The notes beneath the pieces were generated by a model. That model searched no databases, was not told the origin of the DNA, and worked only from the letters and a program-made list of their open reading frames with translations. DNA of 64,000 nt from Aureococcus anophagefferens (taxonomy: Eukaryota; Sar; Pelagophyceae; Pelagomonadales; Pelagomonadaceae). The stretch is from positions 1,853,699-1,917,698 of the forward strand of contig NW_008705566.1 in NCBI RefSeq assembly GCF_000186865.1, written 5' to 3'. Each line of letters begins with the position of its first letter. Position 1 is the first letter of the stretch. The translations under genes and the position numbers were made by a program. Below are positions 2,839-53,922 of this stretch, one piece after another.

Positions 2839-4014
2839 ATGATGAACTCGCCGTTTGGCGGCGCGCATCAGGACGTCCTCGGCCAGAAGCCGTCGGACCC
2901 CGAGTCGAAGGCGTCGCTCGTCGCCGAGATCAAGGACCGCGCGCGCAAGGCCTTCGCGCGCAAGGACATGCCCGTCTGCGAGGCGCTCTACACGAAGGCC
3001 ATCGAGACGCTGCCCGACGCGCCCCTCTACAGCAATCGGAGCGCCGTGCGGCTCACGCTGGGCAAGTTCGACGACGCGGCGAAGGACGCGTCGACGGCGA
3101 CGGAGCTCGACGGCGCGTACGCCAAGGGCTGGTACCGCCTGGGCCAGGCCAAGGAGAAGACGGAGGACTTCGCCGGCGCGCTCAAGGCCTACGAGGCCGG
3201 CGCGAAGCTCGAGCCCGACAGCAAGGTCTGGCCCGCGTCCGTCGTAAAGTGCAAGGCCGCGCAGGAGAAGTTCAAGCTCAAGCCGAAGAAGAAGGTCGAC
3301 GTCGCGCCGAAGATCGAGGCCTTCGTCAAGCCCGCGCCCATCGGCGACAAGACCAAGAGCGCCGCGCCGGCGGCCGGCGGCAAGTCCGACATGCGCGGCT
3401 ACAAGATCGACAGCCAGGGCCGGAAGACGACGTTCTTCAACAACGAGCTCAGCGACGAGGCCAAGGCCCTGATCGGCGACATCGCGCCGAAGAAGGTCGA
3501 GGCGCCCGTGTCCATGGCCACCAAGGCCGGCGAGTCGTCCTGGAACCAGGCCGGCACCTTCGAGTCCAAGGACCACACGAAGTGGGCCAAGGCGTGGCTC
3601 GAGGACAAGTTCGCGGACTTCATGGTCGACCTCCCCGACCGCCAAGTCGGCGCCGTGTCCGTGCCCTGCTTCCTCACGGTCAAGAAGTTCTCCGACTTCA
3701 AGGGCGACGCGTCGACGGCCCAGGCCCGGGGGAAGAAGAAGTGGGTCTTCGACGCGTCGTTCAAACTCGACTGGGAGTTCGCGCTCGACGACAAGGGCTC
3801 CGTGGCCAAGGGCTCCGTCGCCTTCCCCGACGTCTCCGGCGACGTCATCGACGAGGGCGACGCCCTCGAGTACGCCCTCGAGGTCGACTCCCTCACGCCC
3901 AACGACGCGTCCGCGCTCATCACCTCGCACATCAAGTCCGAGACCGCGGGCCTCCGACCCGCCGTCCGCGGCGTCGTCGCCGACCTCGTCGCCGAGTTCA
4001 GGGCGACGAAGTAG
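2839..4014 (+). CDS. TPR-Aha1 fusion, putative Hsp90 co-chaperone
   Basis: The predicted protein has 391 residues starting MMNSPFGGAHQD; the frame extends further upstream but without domain content. Residues about 30-135 are three TPR repeats of the STI1/CHIP type. They include YSNRSA and KGWYRLG, which carry the Asn and Lys/Arg of the carboxylate clamp that binds the EEVD tail of Hsp90/Hsp70. A Lys/Ala-rich linker follows. Residues about 225-390 match the N-terminal domain of the Hsp90 ATPase activator Aha1 (SSWNQAGTFESKDHTKWAKA, then the WVFDASFKLDWEF strand pair). In yeast and animals Aha1 has no TPR, so this joins an Hsp90-tail anchor to an Hsp90-ATPase activator in one cytosolic protein. 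The fusion lies in one uninterrupted frame. The role is inferred from the domains. Confidence 0.88.
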   Translation: MMNSPFGGAHQDVLGQKPSDPESKASLVAEIKDRARKAFARKDMPVCEALYTKAIETLPDAPLYSNRSAVRLTLGKFDDAAKDASTATELDGAYAKGWYRLGQAKEKTEDFAGALKAYEAGAKLEPDSKVWPASVVKCKAAQEKFKLKPKKKVDVAPKIEAFVKPAPIGDKTKSAAPAAGGKSDMRGYKIDSQGRKTTFFNNELSDEAKALIGDIAPKKVEAPVSMATKAGESSWNQAGTFESKDHTKWAKAWLEDKFADFMVDLPDRQVGAVSVPCFLTVKKFSDFKGDASTAQARGKKKWVFDASFKLDWEFALDDKGSVAKGSVAFPDVSGDVIDEGDALEYALEVDSLTPNDASALITSHIKSETAGLRPAVRGVVADLVAEFRATK

Positions 4015-21024: not shown

Positions 21025-23657
21025 CTACCCGTCGGCGCCGCCGTCGTCGCGTTCGGCCGCGCGCGGACCGGCGCCGCCCCCCTGGCCCTGGTTTTGGTCG
21101 CGGTACTTGGCCGCGAGCTCGCCGGGCGTGCAGGCCATCTCGACGGTCTTGTCCGGCCGCTCGCGGATGAAGCGCGGGAAGCGCAGCGAGATGCCCCGCG
21201 ACTCGTGGACGAGGCCGACCGCGGCGCGGTGCGTCGGCGAGATGGACAGGTCCGCGCCCCGGATCTCCCAGACGAGGCGCGGCTCGAACCAGAAGAGGCA
21301 CCGCTCGCCCGTGTCGACGCCCGGCGCGGGCGCGTCGCGCAGCAGCACCGGCTCGTCGCCGGCCGGCGCGTCGGCGCCGATCTCCGCGCCGAGCGCGCGC
21401 ACCGTGAAGTCCTTGTAAAACACGTCCGTGAAGCCGCTCATGACGCGGCAGACGGAGCCGAGCGCTTCGGTCTCCGGGTCGCGCGTCGCGACCAGGATGG
21501 GGCTCACCCACTTGGACTTGCGGCCCTGGCCCTGCCACCCACCAATCACGACGAGGTCCAAGGAATCGCCCAAGGCATCGACGTAGTCCTTCTTCAGTTT
21601 CACCCAGGCGTCGGACCGCTTGCTGCCGAGCGAGTACTCGTAGGGCGCGTCCAATCGCTTCAGCATGAGCCCCTCGCAGCCCGCGTCGACGGACTCGAGG
21701 AGCGCGGCCGTGACGGCCTCCTCCAGCGGCGCGTCGTCGGCCGCCAGGTCGACGTCCGTCGACGCCGCGTAGGCGACGGCGGCCGACGGTTCGCCGAAGG
21801 CCGCCCGGAGCTTCGCGCGGCGCTCCGACAGCGGCAGCGCCGTGACGTCGGCGTCGCCGAGCCACAGGAGGTCGAAGAGCACGAGCCGCACGGCCTGCTC
21901 GACGTTGGCCTCCGTGACGCCGACGCGCTTCCGCGCGCCGAGGGCCTGGAAGGCCAGGGGGTTCGCCGCGGCGCTCACGGGCACGATCTCGGCGTCGACG
22001 ACGAAGGTTTGTGCGCACGCGGCGCGCGCGGCCCGGGCGACGTCGGGGTACTTGTCGGTCATGTCGTCGTTCTTCCGCGAGAAGATGCGCAGGGCGCCGT
22101 CGCTGCCGTGCAGCTGGGCCCGCTGGCCGTCGTACTTGTGCTCGAGGGCCGCGGCGCCGGCGGGCGCCGCGTACTTGCGGAGCTTGGCGATCGCGTCCTT
22201 CTCCGACGTGACGGCGTTGGCGAGCATGGGCGCGGGCGGGACGCCCGGCTCGAGGCGGCACGCCACCTCGAGCGCGGCGTCGAGCGCGTCGCAGAACGCG
22301 GCGGTTTCCGTTTCGGCGACGCCGAGGAGCGCCGCCGCGAGGACCCGGACGTCGCCTGGGCAGGACAAGGGTGATTCAACGTCGCTTCAACGTGAGTGTT
22401 CCGCGCGCGCGCGTTCCGGAAAAAGCGTCCACGCTTCGAGACCGTTCCGAGAGATGATCGCTCGTCCAAAAATCAGCCGAAACGAGTGGAAAACGACCGA
22501 GAAAGGAGCCTTTGAAGTTGGGAATTTCGCTCTCTCGTCCTGCCCTGGACGTCGCCCCTGCGCGAGAAGGCGCCCCGCGCGGCCCGGGCGACGCGGTCCC
22601 GCGCCTTGGGCGGGCACTTCTTCGCGCCGCAGGCGCGGATCAGGCAGGCCTTGGCGAGCGCGGGCACGACCGCGGCCTCGAGCGAGATGCCCGATTCCAT
22701 GTGGGGCACGAAGGTCCGCAGGAGCCACTTGGCCTCGGTGCCGCGCGACGCGCGGACGAGCCTCGCCATGCCGTCGGTCTTCGCTCGTTCGGACCCGGGC
22801 CCGCTCGGCTCGCCGAGGGCCTTGAGGGCCTCGAGGACGTCGACCGCGGCGGCGGCCGGCGGCGGCGGCCTCGCGGGCGACGGCGCGGCCTTCTTGAAGA
22901 ACTTGGCCGCGGCCGACGGCGCGTCCCGGAGCGCGACGACGGCGTCGCCGAGGCTCCCGTGGGCCTTGCGCGCGGCGGCCAGGGCGGCGGGCGACGCGCG
23001 GCAGCCCGCCGCCGCGGCCTCGACGACGGCGTGGCGCGAGAGGCCGAGCGGCGGGCCCGCCGCGTAGTCGGGGCGCAGCCGGTGGCCGCCGGTCTGCGCG
23101 TCCTTCGTGGGCGCGAGGAGGTAGCAGCACGCGGCCAGGTCGTCGGCGCCGCCCGCGGCCGCGGCCCAGCGCAGCGCGTTCGTGAGCGCCCGGTCCTTGG
23201 CGAGCCGCGACCGCGTCGCCGACACGGCGTCGAGGCACCGCGCGACGACACCGTAGGCCGGGCGGTTCCGCTCCGTCGTGAGCGTCGCCAGGCCGCGCGC
23301 CGGGTCGAAGGCGTCGACGTCCTTGGCGACGTCGTCGGGGAGTTCGGCGGCCGGCGCCGGCGGTGGCGCCGGCGGCGCCGTGCGCGCCTTCTTCGCCGGC
23401 GGCGGCGACGCGCGCTTTGGTGGCGAGGGCGGCGGTGGCGGCGCGTCGGGCGCCTCCGTCAGGTCGACGACGGTGTCGTCGGCGCGCGGCGACGACGGCG
23501 GCGCGGGCGCGACTCGCTGCGCGCCGCACATGGCGCAACAGAGGAAGCCAGCCTCGCCACCGTCGTGCGTGTACGTGCAGGTGCCGCACGTCCACTTCGC
23601 GTGCGCATTATTGGTTGTTTTCTTTGGGCTCTTGGCCTTGGCCAGGAAGGCGTCCAT
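21025..23657 (-). CDS. LIG1: ATP-dependent DNA ligase I with N-terminal RanBP2 zinc finger, introner-split
   Basis: Exon 1 is 23657-22556 and exon 2 is 22355-21025. The intron 22555-22356 is a GC-AG introner intron. Joined, they give 810 residues in frame. Residues about 20-50 form a RanBP2-type zinc finger (WTCGTCTYTHDGG ... CCAMCGAQR). After a Pro-rich linker comes the ligase DNA-binding region. Then come the nucleotidyltransferase core with KYDGQRAQLH (adenylated Lys near 441), EGLMLKRLD and WVKLKKDY, and the OB domain with GISLRFPRFIRERPDK. This is the replicative/repair ligase of eukaryotes, sealing nicks with ATP. A RanBP2 finger is not part of animal or yeast ligase I; it could bind RNA, ubiquitin or other proteins. 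Upstream is a minisatellite shared with the cytochrome c1 promoter. Confidence 0.92.
22356..22547 (+). mobile_element. Introner element, divergent subfamily, in the DNA ligase gene
   Basis: The element is 192 bp. It is flanked by the 8-bp duplication GACGTCGC (22348-22355 and 22548-22555; GCGACGTC on the coding strand). Its 11-bp terminal inverted repeats, read on the coding strand, are CAGGGCAGGAC and GTCCTGCCCAG, with one mismatch at base 2. The interior carries the block CGTCCAAAAATCAGCCGAA shared with the other three copies, but the ends differ. It runs antisense to the host gene and forms the ligase intron. Confidence 0.88.
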
Positions 23658-24014
23658 ATGACTCGGCTCGGCCTCGGCAACTCGTGCAACATTAGCTTCA
23701 CTTTAGTGCTCGCGTCGGCGTCCAGTCGCGGCGACGCGGGACTCGTCCTCTCGGGCCGGGCTCGGGCCTGACGTGCTGCCGGAGCAGCGATGCGAAATCA
23801 AGGGGCGCCCGCAGTTCCGGCGCGCGCGCGCGGACGCGAGAATTTGAATTCAAAAACCAAACCAGCGTGATCGATGTAGGAGAGTAGCGTAGGAGAGGCC
23901 TGAAAAAACCCACAACTCTGAGCCGACACGAGTGGCTGGCTTACTAGTGGGTGCCACACCCTCTCAACACGCGCCTGATGCACCGAGGGGGTTGACCGCC
24001 GGTATGCCTGGTAG
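23658..24014. other. Intergenic, no gene seen
   Basis: This 357-bp stretch lies between the DNA ligase start and the minisatellite. It is less GC-rich than its surroundings, with short A/T runs near 23840-23900. No convincing frame or RNA gene is visible. Confidence 0.5.
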
Positions 24015-24459
24015 TATGCGCCCGCTATGCGGGCTTTATGCGGGTGTTATGCGGGTGGTATGCGGGTGGTATGCGGGTGGTATGCGGGTGGTATGCGGGT
24101 GGTATGCGGGTGGTATGCGGGTGGTATGCGGGTGGTATGCGGGTGGTATGCGTCTGCTATGCCGGTGGTATGCGGCTGCTATGCCGGTGGTATGCGGCTG
24201 CTATGCCGGTGGTATGCGGCTGCTATGCCGGTGGTATGCGGCCGGGCTGCTATGCTGGTCTTATGCGGCTGCTATGCTGGTGGTATGCGGCTGCTATGCT
24301 GGTCTTATGCGGCTGCTATGCTGGTGGTATGCGCCTGCTATGCGCCTGCTATGCGTCTGCTATGCGCCTGCTATGCGCCTGCTATGCGCCTGCTATGCGC
24401 CCGCTATGCGCCCGCTATGCGTCTGCTATGCGGCTGCTATGCGGCTGCTATGCTGGTGT
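24015..24459 (+). repeat. 11-bp minisatellite, about 40 copies
   Basis: The array has units of the form TATGCGGGTGG. Variants are grouped in blocks: first about a dozen TATGCGGGTGG, then alternating TATGCGGCTGC/TATGCCGGTGG, then TATGCTGGTGG types, then TATGCGCCTGC/TATGCGCCCGC. Less regular half-units flank it at 24003-24014 and up to about 24486. Because 11 is not a multiple of three, all three + frames stay open and read as Met/Cys/Trp/Tyr-rich repeats; I do not regard these as genes. The array fills most of the promoter of the cytochrome c1 gene. Confidence 0.93.
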
Positions 24460-24592
24460 ATGCCGTGGCTGGTGTATGCCTGGTGGTCGGCCCCCTCTGC
24501 TGATGCAATGAACACACAACCCGTTCAACCTGTCCAATCTTTTCGTTTCCCCTCGCCGGCAGATTGCACGATAGAATACGGAAGGGGATCGC

Positions 24593-37670: not shown

Positions 37671-38856
37671 ATGGCCGACAACGAGCTCTACGCCGAGATG
37701 GAGGAGACGTGGGGCAAGCGCGCGGCGCGGGGCATGCGCACCTGCGTGCGCGGGCGCGAGGTCCTCGTCGACGGCCGGACCGGCGACGCGGCGCTCGACG
37801 CCGCGCCGGCGAGCGACGAGGGCCCCGAGGCCGTCTTCCTCCGGGAGTTGGCCGCGACGCGTAAAGCCAAGGAGGAGGCGAAGAAGGAGCAGCAGGGCGG
37901 CTCGCGCGCGGCCCAGCGGCGGCGGAAGCGCGGCGGCGCGTCCCAGTCGCCCGCGCCGCCCGCGGATCGGAACGCCGCCGACGACGCGAAGGCGCTCAAG
38001 GAGGCGAACGTCCCGGACGCGAAGCCCGAAGCGAAGAAGCCGAAGACGCCCCGGGAGCCCAAGGAGCCCAGGGCCAAGAAGCAGAAGAAGTCGCCGGACC
38101 AGCGGAGCCTCTTCATGACGTCCCCCACGTCCCACCTCCTCGGCGGCAAGACGTCCAAGGCCGACGCGGCGAAGCAGCGCGAGCTCTCCATGGCGCCGCG
38201 GAACGTCGGCGGCGGCCTCTGGGTCCGCGACACGGCGCTCGGCTGTGTGCAAATCAAATCTTCAACCCGACTTCAATGTGCGCGTATTCGAATGGTTTGA
38301 CACGAGCACTTCCGCCGTGCTTCGAGAACTCGCTGAGAGCAATCGATTCGTCCAAAAATCAGCCGAATCGACTTCGATTCGACCGAGCTCGAGAATTCTG
38401 AAGTTTGGCCCCGACGTCCCAGCTCACTGGTTGATTTGCACACAGGCGCTCGGGCCCGACGGCGCGCCCGAGGCGTCCGGCTGCGTCTCCGTCGGCGTGC
38501 TCTACACGGCGCGGCTCCACGCGACGAAGAAGCGCTTCGACCACCGGTCGAACCCGAACTCGCCCTTCGTGTTCCCGTTGGGGCGGAAGGTCGTCGTCGA
38601 CGGCTTCGAGCGCGGCGTCCTCGGCATGCGCGTCGGCGGCGAGCGCGAGGTCGTCGTGCCGCCGGACCTCGGCTACGGCGCCGAGGGCGCGCCGCCCAAG
38701 GTCCCGGGCGGCGCGACGCTGCACTTCACGATCAAGCTCGTCCGCGTCGGCGACGCCGACGGCGCGACCGCCAAGGCCGAGCCGACGCTGCGGCGCCGCG
38801 CGCGCGGCGCGCGCGGCGGCGCGCGCGCGCACAAGAAGCGCAACGCCGCGGCATGA
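37671..38856 (+). CDS. FKBP-type peptidyl-prolyl isomerase with basic N-terminus, introner-split
   Basis: Exon 1 is 37671-38234 and exon 2 is 38446-38856. The 211-nt intron between them is an introner with a GC donor and CACAG acceptor. The joined protein has 324 residues. Its first ~190 are charged and low-complexity (KKPKTPREPKEPRAKKQKKS), with a nuclear-type basic cluster. The C-terminal domain is FKBP: GVLYTARLHATKKRFDHRSN, FVFPLGRKVVVDGFERGVLG, MRVGGEREVVVPPDLGYGAE, ATLHFTIKLVRVG. Basic N-terminal extensions of this kind occur in nuclear FKBPs that act on histones and ribosome biogenesis; that role is inferred. It ends in an Arg/Ala-rich tail. Confidence 0.9.
38243..38445 (+). mobile_element. 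Introner element in the FKBP gene
   Basis: The element is 203 bp with perfect 15-bp terminal inverted repeats (CTGTGTGCAAATCAA at the left, its exact complement at the right). It is flanked by the 8-bp duplication GCGCTCGG (38235-38242 and 38446-38453). It runs in the same direction as the host gene. The intron is the left duplication plus the element. Confidence 0.95.
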
Positions 38857-44796: not shown

Positions 44797-47728
44797 ATGG
44801 TGCTCGAGCTCGAGGAGGAGGGGGGCTCCAAGGCCGCCGCCTCCTCCGCCGGCGCCCCCGAGGACGCCGGCGCCTCCGGTGCGCCCGAGGAGCCCGCCGA
44901 GACCTCCCCGGCCCCGAAGCCGCGGCGCAACAAGCGGCCGTCCATGCTCGAGCGCGGGTCCGGGGCCGCGGGCTTCTGGTTCGGCTCCCAGCTCAGCGAG
45001 CACAACGTGAACATCGAGTACCAGAACACGTTCAAGGAGACGCACGAGGAGGCCAAGTCGAAGAAGAAGAAGAAGAAGAAGGACGGCGGTGGCGCCCCCC
45101 GCACGCGGAGCCGCCGCGTGTCGTCGTCGACGGCCTTCTTCAACAAGTTCCTCGGCTGCGCGTACCGCAAGTCGCGCGACGACCTCGCCGACGGCGACGA
45201 CGGCGGCGGCGGCGACGACGACGCGTCCGACGAGTCCGAGTCCGACGACGAGGGCGGCGCGGGCCTCCAGCGGGGCCTGTCGAAGCGCGTGTCGTCCTTC
45301 GCGGGCGGCCGCGCGGCCAAGGCCGGGTCCGTCGACAGCGACGACGGCGACAGCTCGGGCAGCGGCCGCGCGTCCGTCGGCAACCGCGCGTCGCGGAGCG
45401 GCATCAAGCGCATGACGCCCACGCACAAGTCGTTGTCCCTGGCCGCCATCGACGCGTCGGGCCTCGACGACTTCGAGGCGGGCCACAAGTTCGCGCACTA
45501 CCGCTTCGGGAAGAACTGGGAATTCCAGGATTTTCCCGAGCACCCCTTGAACCGCGAGCTCGACTGGTACGACTACCTGGCGCACACGGAGCTCTGCACC
45601 ATGAACTACGACGCGCTGCTCCACGGCGACACGGAGAAGCTCGCGGAGATGACGCGCGTCTTCATGAACCTCCGGTTCCTCCAGACGCTCCGGCTGAAGA
45701 CCGTGTGGAAATCAAATCTTCAACCCGACTTCAATGTGAGCGTATGCGACCGTTTCGACGCAAGGCTTTCTGCTGTGCTTCGAGAACTCGATGAGAGCGA
45801 TCGATTCGTCCAAAAATCAGCCGAATCGACTTCGATTTGACCGAGCTAGAGAATTCTGAAGTTTGGCCCCGACGTCCCAGCTCACTGGTTGATTTCCACA
45901 CAGGCTGAAGACGGAGACGCTCGCGGCCTTTCTGGGCGACGTCTGGCGCATGATGCCGCCGAAGAACTTCTACCACAACTTCTCCCACATCTGCGACGTG
46001 AGCCAGTGCATGTACACGCTCCTCGTGGCCACGCGCCTCGTCGGCCGCTTCGACCCGCTCGTCGTGTGCGCGGCGATCTGCGCGGCGATCTGCCACGATT
46101 TGGAGCACCCGGGCCTGTCCAACGTCTTCCAGAACTCGGAGAAGACGGCGTTGTCCCTGCGCTACGACGGCAAGTCGCCCCTGGAGAACCACCACTGCGC
46201 GTGCTTCGACCTGTTGGTGACAAAGCACGGCCTCCTCGACAAGCTCAACGCGGCGGACGGCGCCAAGTTCACGGCGCTCGTGAAGCGCATGATCCTGACG
46301 ACGGACATGGCGAACCACAACCAGCTCATGTCGGCCGTGCGCGAGCGCCTCGAGGGCGGGCAGAATTTGTTGGCCGACGCCGAGGGCACCGCGCTCGTGC
46401 TCAGCCTCGTGCTCAAGTGCTCCGACATCAGCAACCAGGCGCGGCCCTGGCGCACGGCGGAGCGCTGGACGGGGCGCGTCTACGAGGAGTTCTACCACGA
46501 GGGCGACCTCGACCGCGCCGCGGGCCGGCCCGTGTCCGCGCTCCACGACCGGGGCACGAACAACATCGCCAAGTCCTCCGTGGGCTTCATCACCTACATC
46601 GTCGAGCCCCTCTACAAGCTCCTCGGCGCGGCCATCCAGGCCTGCGCGGGCCGCGGCGAGGACATCCACGTCCGCGTCGTCGACGAGTGCCTCGTGACGC
46701 TGAGCAAGAACAAGGAGCGGCACAAGCAGGTGAGCGAGGGCCTCGAGCCGACGCCCTTCCAGACGGAGGACGACATGGTCGCCCAGGACCACAACGACCG
46801 CCTCCGCGAGCTCGCGGGCCGGCCGGGCTGCAACGGCTACCAGCAGCTCATGCAGGAGAAGCGCTTCAACTACCGCGCGGCGCACGACGGCTCCATCGGC
46901 CGCGTCGACGACGAGGACGCGAACGCGGACCGCTCCTGCAAGCCCATCGCCGACATGGTCCAGTTCTTCAAGGCCAAGGGCGAGTCCACGACCTACGGCG
47001 AGGCCGCGGCGCGACATCACGAGCCGGCCGAGCCCGCGCCCGAGGAGGTCAAGGCGCCGGACGCCGACAAGGACGCGGCGCCGCCGCCGCCGGCCGCGGC
47101 GCCGCCGGCGCCCGAGCCCGAGCCGGAGCCGGAGCCGGAGCCAGAGCCCGTCGCGGCGCCCGAGCCGGAGCCGGAGCCCGTCGCGGCGCCCGAGCCGGAG
47201 CCCGTCGCGGCGCCGGAGCCCGAGCCCGTCGCGGCGCCCGAGCCGGAGCCGGAGCCCGCCGCGGCGCCCGAGCCCGAGCCCGCCGCGGCGCCCGAGCCCG
47301 AGCCCGAGCCCGCCGCGGCGCCCGAGCCCGTCGCGCCCGCGCCGCCGCCCGCGCCGGAGCCCGCGCCGCCCGCGGCGGTCGCGCCGCCGCCGGCCGAGCC
47401 CGCGGCGGCGGCGCCCGCGCCGCCGGCGACGCCGACGGCGGAGATTTTGCCCGCGCCCGCGCCGACGCCGACGCCCGGGAAGAAGATGAAGCGCGTCTCC
47501 AAGGCCGAGGCGGCGCTGCGGCGCGAGGCCAAGGCCGCCGAGGCCGCGGCGATCGCGGCCGGCGAGCTGCCGCCCAAAAAATCGAAGAAGCGGACGTCGA
47601 CGCTGAAAAAGGTGTCGGAGCAGGCGGCGAGGAATCCCGAGGCGTCGCCCGAGGAGCCGTCCCCGGGGGGCAAGGCGGGCGAGAGCAACGGCGGCGGCCT
47701 CTCCGTCAACGGCGCCGCGGCGAGATAG
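44797..47728 (+). CDS. Class I cyclic-nucleotide phosphodiesterase, introner-split
   Basis: Exon 1 is 44797-45692 and exon 2 is 45904-47728; the intron between is an introner with a GC donor. The joined protein has 906 residues. The N-terminal 230 residues are charged and basic ([13 protein letters not shown]). The catalytic domain includes [34 protein letters not shown] and [15 protein letters not shown], the paired His/Asp metal ligands of PDE1-11-type enzymes. The introner cuts just before the HNFSH metal motif (..[13 protein letters not shown]). The tail of about 250 residues is a PEPEPVAA repeat followed by a basic coiled coil. It hydrolyses cAMP and/or cGMP; specificity cannot be read. 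Confidence 0.94.
45701..45903 (+). mobile_element. Introner element in the phosphodiesterase gene
   Basis: The element is 203 bp with 15-bp terminal inverted repeats (CCGTGTGGAAATCAA and TTGATTTCCACACAG, one mismatch at base 2). It is flanked by the 8-bp duplication GCTGAAGA (45693-45700 and 45904-45911). It runs in the same direction as the host and is nearly identical inside to the FKBP copy. Confidence 0.95.
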
Positions 47729-52091: not shown

Positions 52092-53922
52092 ATGCCGCGC
52101 AACAAGCAGCAGATGCCCATGTGCCAGTACGGCGCGTCGTGCACGCGCAAGGGCTGCGTCTACCGCCACCCGCCCAAGCCCGCGAAGAAGGCGGTGAAGA
52201 ACGTGGAGATCTGCGTCCACTTCATCGGCGGGGCCTGCAGCTTCGGCGACAAGTGCGCGAACCGCCACCCGGGCAAGGCCGAGGCCGCGCGGTTCCGGGA
52301 GACGTGCGCGTCGATCGCGTGCCGCTTCGGCGCCGGCTGCGCGAACGCCGCGTGCCTCTACAACCACGACGGCCGGGGCCGCGTGCCCGCGGCGCGCCCG
52401 GCGCCCGCGCCCGCGCCGCCGGCGGCGCCGCCGCCGGCGCCCGCGGGCGACGGCTGGTGGCAGGCGCCGGGCGCGCTCGGCGAGGGCGGCGACGAGTGCT
52501 GCGACCCCATCTCGCTCGAGCCCCTCGCGGAGCTGGGCTACCCGCCCTTCGGCCTCTGGGAGAGCGGCCGCTGGCACTGGTTCGACGGCGCCGTGCTCGC
52601 CACGTACCTCGTGTCCACGGCGACGTTCGCGAACCCGCTCACGCGGACGGCGCTCGCGCGCGAGGACTGCCGCGCGCTCGACGACTACCTCAACGACCAC
52701 GGCCTGCGCGCGAGCGAGAACATGGGGAGCGTGCTCGTGACCCACGCCTTCGACCTCCTCGAGCTCACGGCCCGCGGCGGCGGCGCCGAGGAGCGCGCGA
52801 TGGTCTCGCGGTCGCAGCGCGAGGCGACGACGGTGCTCCGCAGCCTCTTCGGCTTCGCGCGCTACGAGCCGCCGCCGGAGCCGCCGCGCTTCCCCGACGC
52901 GCCGCCGCCCCGGGCGCCGGCGCCCTACGAGGACTCCTTCGCGCCGCGGCCCGGCGGCCTCGGCCTCGGCGGCGGCGCGTCGCTCGGCGACGCGCTCGCG
53001 GCCGCCGAGGGGCCGCGCGTGCCCTACGGCGCCGCGGCCTCGGCGCCCCTCGACGACGTCGCGGAGAGCGACCTCGACGCCGGCGCCTTCCCCGCGCTCA
53101 GCGCGCTCGCGGCGCTCGGCCTCGGCGACGCGCCGCCGCCGCCGCCGCTCGGCGCGCCGTCGTTCGCCGCGCAGGCGGCCAAGCCCGCCGCGCCCGGCGC
53201 GTTCGAGGTCCCGGCCTACGTCGAGGCGCCCCAGAGCGCCGGCGGCGGCCGCCGGGCCGTCCGCGTGCCCCGCGAGATCCAGTGTGGAATTCAACCACTG
53301 GTTTGGGTGGTCCTGACCAAACTTGAGAATTCTCTAGCTCGGTCAAATCGAAGTCGATTCGGCTGATTTTTGGACGAATCGATTGCTCTCGTCAAGTTCT
53401 CGAAGCACAGCCGAAGAGATTGCGTCGAAACCGTCGCATACGCTCACATCGAAGTCGGGTTGAAGATTTGAATTCCACACAGGCGAGATCTGGGTGCCCC
53501 TGCGGAACGCGCGCGTCTTCGAGGTCCGCGACCCCATCGAGCGCTACCGCCTCGTCGCCGCGGCGCACGACCGCGGCGACGTCGTCGACCTCCACTTCCA
53601 GTCCAACCGCACGGCGCCCGTCGTCCTCGACGCCGTCCTCGACGCCGCGCTCGCGGGCCACCCCGCGGGCGTCTGGGTCGTCACGGGCTCGGGCCACCAC
53701 GCGCCCCAGCGCAGCCACCAGAAGCTCCACGCCACGCTCTTCCATTTTACGCAGGACTGGCTCGCGACGCGCCGCTACGCCTTCGCCGTCGCCAAGGACC
53801 ACAACGGCTTCGCCGGCGCGTTCCTCGTCACGGGGCTCCCGCCCGACCGGCGCGCGGCGCGCTTCGTCCGCGGCGCCGCGGGCGCGACCTGGGGCCCGCC
53901 GCCGGCCGCGGGCGGCTGGTGA
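52092..53922 (+). CDS. CCCH zinc finger, U-box-like and Smr-like domain protein, introner-split
   Basis: Exon 1 is 52092-53271 and exon 2 is 53483-53922, joined across a GC-AG introner intron. The protein has 539 residues. Three CCCH fingers lie in the first 100 (CQYGASCTRKGCVYRH, CVHFIGGACSFGDKCANRH, CRFGAGCANAACLYNH). After a Pro/Ala linker comes a region resembling a U-box (CDPISLEPLAELGYPPFGLW to TFANPLTRTALAREDCRALD). A disordered segment follows. Exon 2 holds an Smr-like domain: DVVDLHFQSNRTAPVVLDAV and VWVVTGSGHHAPQRSHQKLH. The combination suggests an RNA-binding protein with nuclease-like and possibly ubiquitin-ligase functions in mRNA surveillance. The start is the ATG at 52092. Confidence 0.85.
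53280..53482 (-). mobile_element. Introner element, reverse orientation, in the CCCH-Smr gene
   Basis: The element is 203 bp with 15-bp terminal inverted repeats (CAGTGTGGAATTCAA and TTGAATTCCACACAG, one mismatch at base 2). It is flanked by the duplication GCGAGATC (53272-53279 and 53483-53490). Its interior is the reverse complement of the FKBP and phosphodiesterase copies, yet it still forms a GC-AG intron. Confidence 0.95.

Follow-up and report, generated by a model that had tools for sequence, protein, structure and literature searches.

How does a gene remain readable when a 203-bp element lies in the middle of its coding sequence? The question is raised by an FKBP gene of Aureococcus anophagefferens, found on the plus strand of the 64,000-nucleotide stretch of DNA analysed here (the window). 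Exon 1 of this gene (37671–38234) comprises 188 codons in the plus-strand frame selected by our codon model, and exon 2 (38446–38856), which contains an FKBP_C domain (PF00254, E 2.2e-23), continues in phase 0 to a TGA stop. The two exons are split by an introner element of 203 bp (38243–38445), which ends in CAG and whose 15-bp terminal inverted repeats, CTGTGTGCAAATCAA and TTGATTTGCACACAG, are perfectly complementary in this copy. On either side of it lies an 8-bp direct repeat, GCGCTCGG, at 38235–38242 and 38446–38453, the right-hand copy forming the first 8 nt of exon 2. The element, its inverted ends, the flanking repeat and the frame of the gene had all been described in an earlier reading of the bare sequence, and each was confirmed. 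The GCGCTCGG pair was also recovered, with a 15-bp inverted end, among the matches listed in a window-wide scan for 8-bp direct repeats lying 150–259 bp apart around low-GC or inverted-ended segments.

We propose that a non-autonomous, MITE-like DNA transposon (an introner) inserted into the FKBP gene at GCGCTCGG, presumably by means of an unseen transposase, with duplication of 8 bp. The left duplication would then supply a GC 5′ splice site at 38235 and the terminal CAG of the element would supply the 3′ splice site. A GC-AG intron of 211 nt in phase 0 (38235–38445, one duplication plus the element) would thereby be removed precisely and the pre-insertion codons restored. Since the same inverted repeat stands at both ends, the element would work in either orientation, and a copy would persist in a gene only if the gene strand of the duplication starts with GC or GT, purifying selection being the presumed cause of the resulting strand pattern. 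That the FKBP copy is an introner of this kind, taking one splice site from its own target duplication and carrying the other, appears highly probable from the family pattern and the homologs presented below.

Candidate donors at the FKBP intron

The sequence-only reading had held GC38235 to be the only frame-preserving donor, on the ground that the GT in the left end of the element would break the frame. When the GT and GC dinucleotides between 38180 and 38289 were joined to the acceptor at 38445, six donors kept the frame without a stop: GC38193, GT38205, GT38223, GC38235, GT38247 and GC38280. The objection is correct for the first GT of the left end, at 38245, which adds 10 nt, but fails for the second, at 38247–38248 in the left inverted repeat. 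The latter adds the 8-bp duplication plus CTGT (CTGT|GTGC), that is 12 nt encoding the four residues ALGC, and stays in frame. The claim of a single possible donor was therefore wrong, and GT38247, which we regard as a decoy, is the donor used in the public NCBI model of the FKBP gene (P0004). Moreover, none of the equivalent +12 translations from 83 family copies shows a stop. Frame alone therefore cannot decide between GC38235 and GT38247, and frame preservation was rejected as proof of a donor; our preference for GC38235 comes from the population pattern and the homologs.

Copies in the window and the genome

A search of the whole-genome DNA (49.05 Mb, 86 contigs) gave 1760 first-look candidates, 40 of which were scored and all 40 of which matched; the 39 other than the FKBP-gene element of the window are 95–99% identical to it. 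Exact-pattern counts across the 49-Mb genome found 1065 intact 15-bp ends, followed by GC in 400 cases, GT in 306, GA or GG in 65 and a base other than G in 294. As each copy has two ends, the number of copies with an intact end must be 533 or more. Near-identical copies in unrelated genes, target-site duplications and terminal inverted repeats place the element among the introners, and its small size (203 bp), inverted ends and lack of a transposase of its own place it among the MITEs. Specifically, the FKBP-gene element has stops in five of six frames, and the only open frame, of 67 residues, is too short to encode a transposase. Twenty places in the genome carry an exact 15-bp end with different following bases, with no inverted pair within 10 kb among them. 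Duplications of 8 bp are made by transposons of the hAT superfamily. A search of the genome for hAT transposases (PF05699) gave no match, in a test in which 0 of 14 controls matched either, and no match was obtained in a phage collection with the element as query.

Four copies of the family lie within the window. In addition to the FKBP copy (38243–38445), a second interrupts a cyclic-nucleotide phosphodiesterase gene in phase 2 (45693–45903, plus strand), where the GC-starting duplication GCTGAAGA precedes an element at 45701–45903 and is repeated at 45904–45911. The third (53272–53482, plus strand, phase 1) consists of the duplication GCGAGATC and an element at 53280–53482 in the opposite orientation, with the duplication repeated at 53483–53490; its gene frame encodes what we take to be CCCH-type and Smr-like motifs. 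The fourth (22356–22555, minus strand) is a diverged relative of 192 bp, with its element at 22356–22547, different ends (CTGGGCAGGAC) and CAG at its end on the gene strand. Its 8-bp duplication, GACGTCGC, reads GCGACGTC on the gene strand (minus), with the other copy at 22348–22355, and gives a GC-AG pattern on the minus strand; this copy perhaps represents a second introner subfamily. With the gene strand as assigned by the codon model, for which the window was among the training data, all four copies start with GC and end with CAG. Elsewhere in the window, an array of 11-bp repeats spans several hundred bases (23925–24513), its period not being a multiple of 3.

Splice-site pattern on the gene strand

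The sample comprised 92 distinct copies, taken from 90 loci and the window, in which the 8-bp duplication has no more than two mismatches. Sixteen matches without acceptable ends were left out, including the window copy at 53280–53482, which was resolved afterwards. The gene strand of each copy was called from about 360 bp of joined flanks, with the 8-bp duplication counted once and no rule on GC or GT. The codon model used for this purpose was self-trained on the window and 18 non-redundant loci, starting from a general high-GC codon prior; it replaced a first model, trained on the longest open reading frames, which scored TAC, AAG and ACG negatively and chose the wrong strand. Confident calls were obtained for 83 of the 92 copies, all of which interrupt coding-like frames, and nine were dropped as uncertain (seven with GC or GT on the called strand, two without).

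On the gene strand, the duplication of these 83 copies starts with GC in 55, GT in 27 and GA in one, so that 82 of 83 start with GC or GT; on the opposite strand the number is 23 of 83. In 59 copies only one of the two strands has such a start, and this is always the gene strand. The same pattern was found in the 45 copies that had been fetched without duplication bases in the query, a set free of this possible bias: 44 start with GC or GT on the gene strand (25 GC, 19 GT; the remaining one GA) against 11 on the other, and the discordant copies divide 33 to 0. Since 50 elements have one orientation with respect to the gene and 33 the other, the pattern tracks the gene and not the element. CAG stands at the element end on the gene strand in 83 of 83 copies, and its A is never changed there, whereas its mirror base at the opposite end has been altered in 20 of them (p ~1e-6). 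By this sequence pattern, one splice site is carried by the element and the other co-opted, and the family-wide data lend support to the proposal, already made for the FKBP copy in the sequence-only reading, that GC would come from the left duplication and CAG from the right end of the element.

The GTs inside the element behave differently. T4 and T6, the bases that make them, are changed in 11 and 9 of the 83 copies and their mirrors in 8 and 6; as these rates are about the same, the internal GTs appear to be under no extra constraint. The GT at +12 is absent from nine of the 83 copies, and five have no GT at all in the first 10 nt of the element, yet they still have GC- or GT-starting duplications and open frames. 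We also considered whether pairing of the inverted repeats is needed to define the intron, an idea for which the end-change counts in the 83 copies gave no support: changes at T4 and T6 of the left end, mostly T-to-C, break the pair, those at the right end, mostly A-to-G, keep a wobble pair, and the two are about equally frequent.

A partly overlapping sample was taken from contigs C1–C3, which hold 215 of the 1065 ends: 68 elements with both 15-bp ends intact, 54 of them exactly 203 bp long, and 79 unpaired ends. Of the 68 two-ended elements, 67 have GC or GT next to one end or both; with independent ends, about 9.6 elements would have been expected to have neither. Exactly one end qualifies in 49 elements, with GC in 25 and GT in 24. 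Two rare copies have a duplication without GC or GT: one (L016:2189) starts with GA on the called gene strand, and the other (G000:C3:1341493-1341693) has GA beside one end. They may be examples of the rare GA donors reported for introners, the donor shares given for introner families in the available text of PMC9860276 being 0–50% for GC and 0–40% for GA.

The share of GC donors has to be read against the sequence in which the elements lie. GC accounts for about 79% of the GC plus GT available in the flanking coding sequence and for 25 of the 44 GC/GT copies (57%) fetched without bias, so that retention of GT, relative to its availability, is about 2.9-fold that of GC (p 0.001). Of the 17 donors at introns that begin at codon position 2, where the flanks offer almost no GT, 16 are GC. 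Past the first two bases the donor consensus is slight (A at +4 in 12, G at +5 in 31 and T at +6 in 8 of the 83 copies). GC-AG at the FKBP gene is an ordinary outcome of a GC-rich genome and is not special to this gene. A tolerant spliceosome would presumably lie behind such use of GC-AG; a search for U1 RNA gave no match, with 0 of 14 controls matched.

Homologs, rival readings and known introners

The best named NCBI proteins for the FKBP gene (97% identical over aligned columns), the phosphodiesterase gene (98%) and a CTP synthase gene interrupted by another family copy (98%) all belong to Aureococcus anophagefferens. The NCBI FKBP model P0004 reads RDTALGCALGPDG, which is exactly the GT38247 product with its four additional residues; of the 10 FKBP homologs that were aligned, the other nine all lack this insertion. 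Among these, the ENA-sourced P0003 (98%, 324 aa; 39 member sequences, 7 contigs) reads RDTALGADG, its source not stating whether it derives from empty DNA, RNA or a spliced gene model. The ortholog from Pelagomonas calceolata (P0005) is likewise free of the insertion.

At the phosphodiesterase site, neither P0029 nor the MMETSP protein P0031 is interrupted, and the NCBI model P0030 lacks six residues, a deletion that fits use of a GT donor 18 nt upstream. P0029 (ENA/JGI-sourced) has a translated introner as its C-terminus, at a position where the studied genome lacks one, and therefore seems to come from unspliced genomic DNA. Having one introner that is absent here and lacking the one present at 45693, it seems to record presence and absence of introners between close genomes. 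P0031 was rejected as RNA proof for this copy and is given little weight: its best match is another locus, on contig C16 (73% over residues 1–413), only its middle part is near-identical to the window gene, the ends being closer to the C16 locus, which suggests a chimera of two phosphodiesterase genes or a paralog, and its strain is not known to carry the element.

The CTP synthase copy (L081) has a GC-starting duplication. Of 7998 matched homologs, 120 were listed, and 118 of these are gapless at the junction; the other two are the A. anophagefferens model P0065, which contains ALRC, the +12 product, and P0098, which has a long insertion nearby. P0067 and P0068 seem to retain other introns in unspliced form and would thus represent genomic empty sites at this junction. 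Together with P0029, they read through sites that are filled in the studied genome, so that presence and absence between close relatives is seen at the protein level. P0064, whose strain may or may not carry the element, ends in an adapter-like tail, is transcript-like in appearance and has no insertion.

Pfam scores were compared for the duplication-donor and the +12 products of five domains. They are higher for the former in CTP_synth_N (371.8 v 363.7), EF-hand_6 (32.9 v 24.7) and Sel1 (78.4 v 75.9), and equal in PDEase_I (175.5) and tRNA-synt_2b (84.2), two comparisons that are uninformative because the junction lies outside the profile. In all three genes checked (38247, 45693 and L081:1501), the NCBI models disagree with the duplication-donor reading, with four residues gained in P0004 and P0065 and six lost in P0030.

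The main rival explanation is that the element carries both splice sites, with GT38247 as donor and the duplication plus CTGT left in the mRNA. Such a product is in frame without a stop, the NCBI models of the FKBP and CTP synthase genes follow it, and Fig. 2F of PMC9860276 prints an Aureococcus introner that adds 12 bp, made of an 8-bp duplication and 4 bp of the element. If the element brought its own donor, however, copies with other duplication starts would persist, and there would be no reason for the difference between 82 and 23 of 83 on the two strands; the +12 GT is no better conserved than its mirror, and the CTP synthase and FKBP homologs are nearly all without the insertion. The printed example is probably one that RNA-seq did not cover, since the methods of that paper omit genus-level TARA metagenomes from this analysis. 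Taken together, these points make this rival very unlikely. A variant compatible with our explanation would have both donors in use, GC38235 for the most part and GT38247 as a minor site, giving isoforms four residues apart. The open frame of all 83 +12 products would allow this, but the internal GTs bear no signal of selection and copies dependent on them are nearly absent, so that we regard a minor isoform of this kind as unlikely.

The GC/GT starts might instead reflect only an insertion preference of the transposase and say nothing of splicing, a reading with which the near-universal GC or GT beside at least one end of the C1–C3 elements agrees. It is nevertheless extremely improbable: the starts follow the gene strand in every discordant copy with elements lying in both orientations, and a transposase acting on symmetrical ends has no obvious way to read the direction of a gene. 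That the element is simply retained and disrupts the FKBP gene is barely credible, as retention would bring an early in-frame stop within the element, yet the two exons are still open in frame and coding-like by codon score, and the domain is intact. GC38235 thus appears much the better reading of the FKBP donor, judged by the population pattern and the homologs, and we infer that splicing very probably removes the element from the RNA as an intron that owes its 5′ signal to the bases copied at insertion.

This mechanism is already published for A. anophagefferens. Huff, Zilberman and Roy reportedly described in 2016 that the introners of this species carry one splice site and take the other from the duplication. 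As far as the available text of the later papers goes, A. anophagefferens introners have direct repeats and inverted ends whose lengths are constant (PMC7789003) and, on transcriptomic and genomic evidence, insert in both orientations with co-opted splice sites (PMC10228655), and their introns are of about 210 bp (PMC9481584), in line with the 211 nt found here. The same text of PMC7789003 calls their splice motifs canonical, a remark that does not fit the GC share of the present family, which is 25/49, 25/45 or 55/83 depending on the sample. More distant systems share parts of this design. In Symbiodinium microadriaticum (PMC9860276, Fig. 2B), introners likewise have inverted ends, a 3′ splice site in the element and a 5′ splice site in the duplication, which is 4 bp there and 8 bp here. 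In the portion of PMC7789003 on Amoebophrya, introner elements are likewise described with inverted repeats at the intron ends, direct repeats at the exon boundaries and non-GT introns, but with splice sites that lack a clear signature, unlike the GC/GT and CAG of the present copies.

The closest comparison is with the family 4 introner of Aureococcus sp. (PMC9860276, Fig. 2F–G), in which the duplication contributes 8 and the element 4 of the 12 bp added. The printed case (3289–3365, 77 bp) comes from a TARA genome and was read as carrying both splice sites. Like the FKBP copy, it has an 8-bp duplication and an internal donor 4 bp into the element (CTGT|GTG); in the family studied here, however, it is the start of the duplication and not the internal GT that carries the signal. 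As the methods section of that paper places genus-level TARA metagenomes outside the RNA-seq analysis, the example may derive from gene models, and the same donor ambiguity may, by analogy, affect it.

The FKBP copy belongs to a known introner family, in which it is unexceptional and looks young. What the present analysis adds is that public gene models appear to mis-splice introner introns. About half of this very large class of transposon-made introns would use GC donors with little consensus beyond G-C/T, and in every intact-ended copy a decoy GT, also in frame, would lie exactly 12 nt further downstream (8-bp duplication plus CTGT). Because gene finders restricted to GT would take the decoy, public A. 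anophagefferens proteins would carry spurious 4-residue duplications where introners have inserted, an artefact that may also account for the printed Aureococcus introner said to add 12 bp. We lean towards this account as a whole, with no more than modest confidence. A correction of gene models at introner sites was not found stated in the available text of the literature searched.

The mechanism is one by which a jumping element would make a working intron in a single step, and the window offers four examples of it. Its main by-product is a simple and testable reason for the 4-residue duplications seen at introner sites in public models. If this is true genome-wide, many A. anophagefferens protein models and some inferences of intron gain would need revision, and A. 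anophagefferens would be a good system in which to study how a spliceosome comes to accept GC almost as readily as GT.
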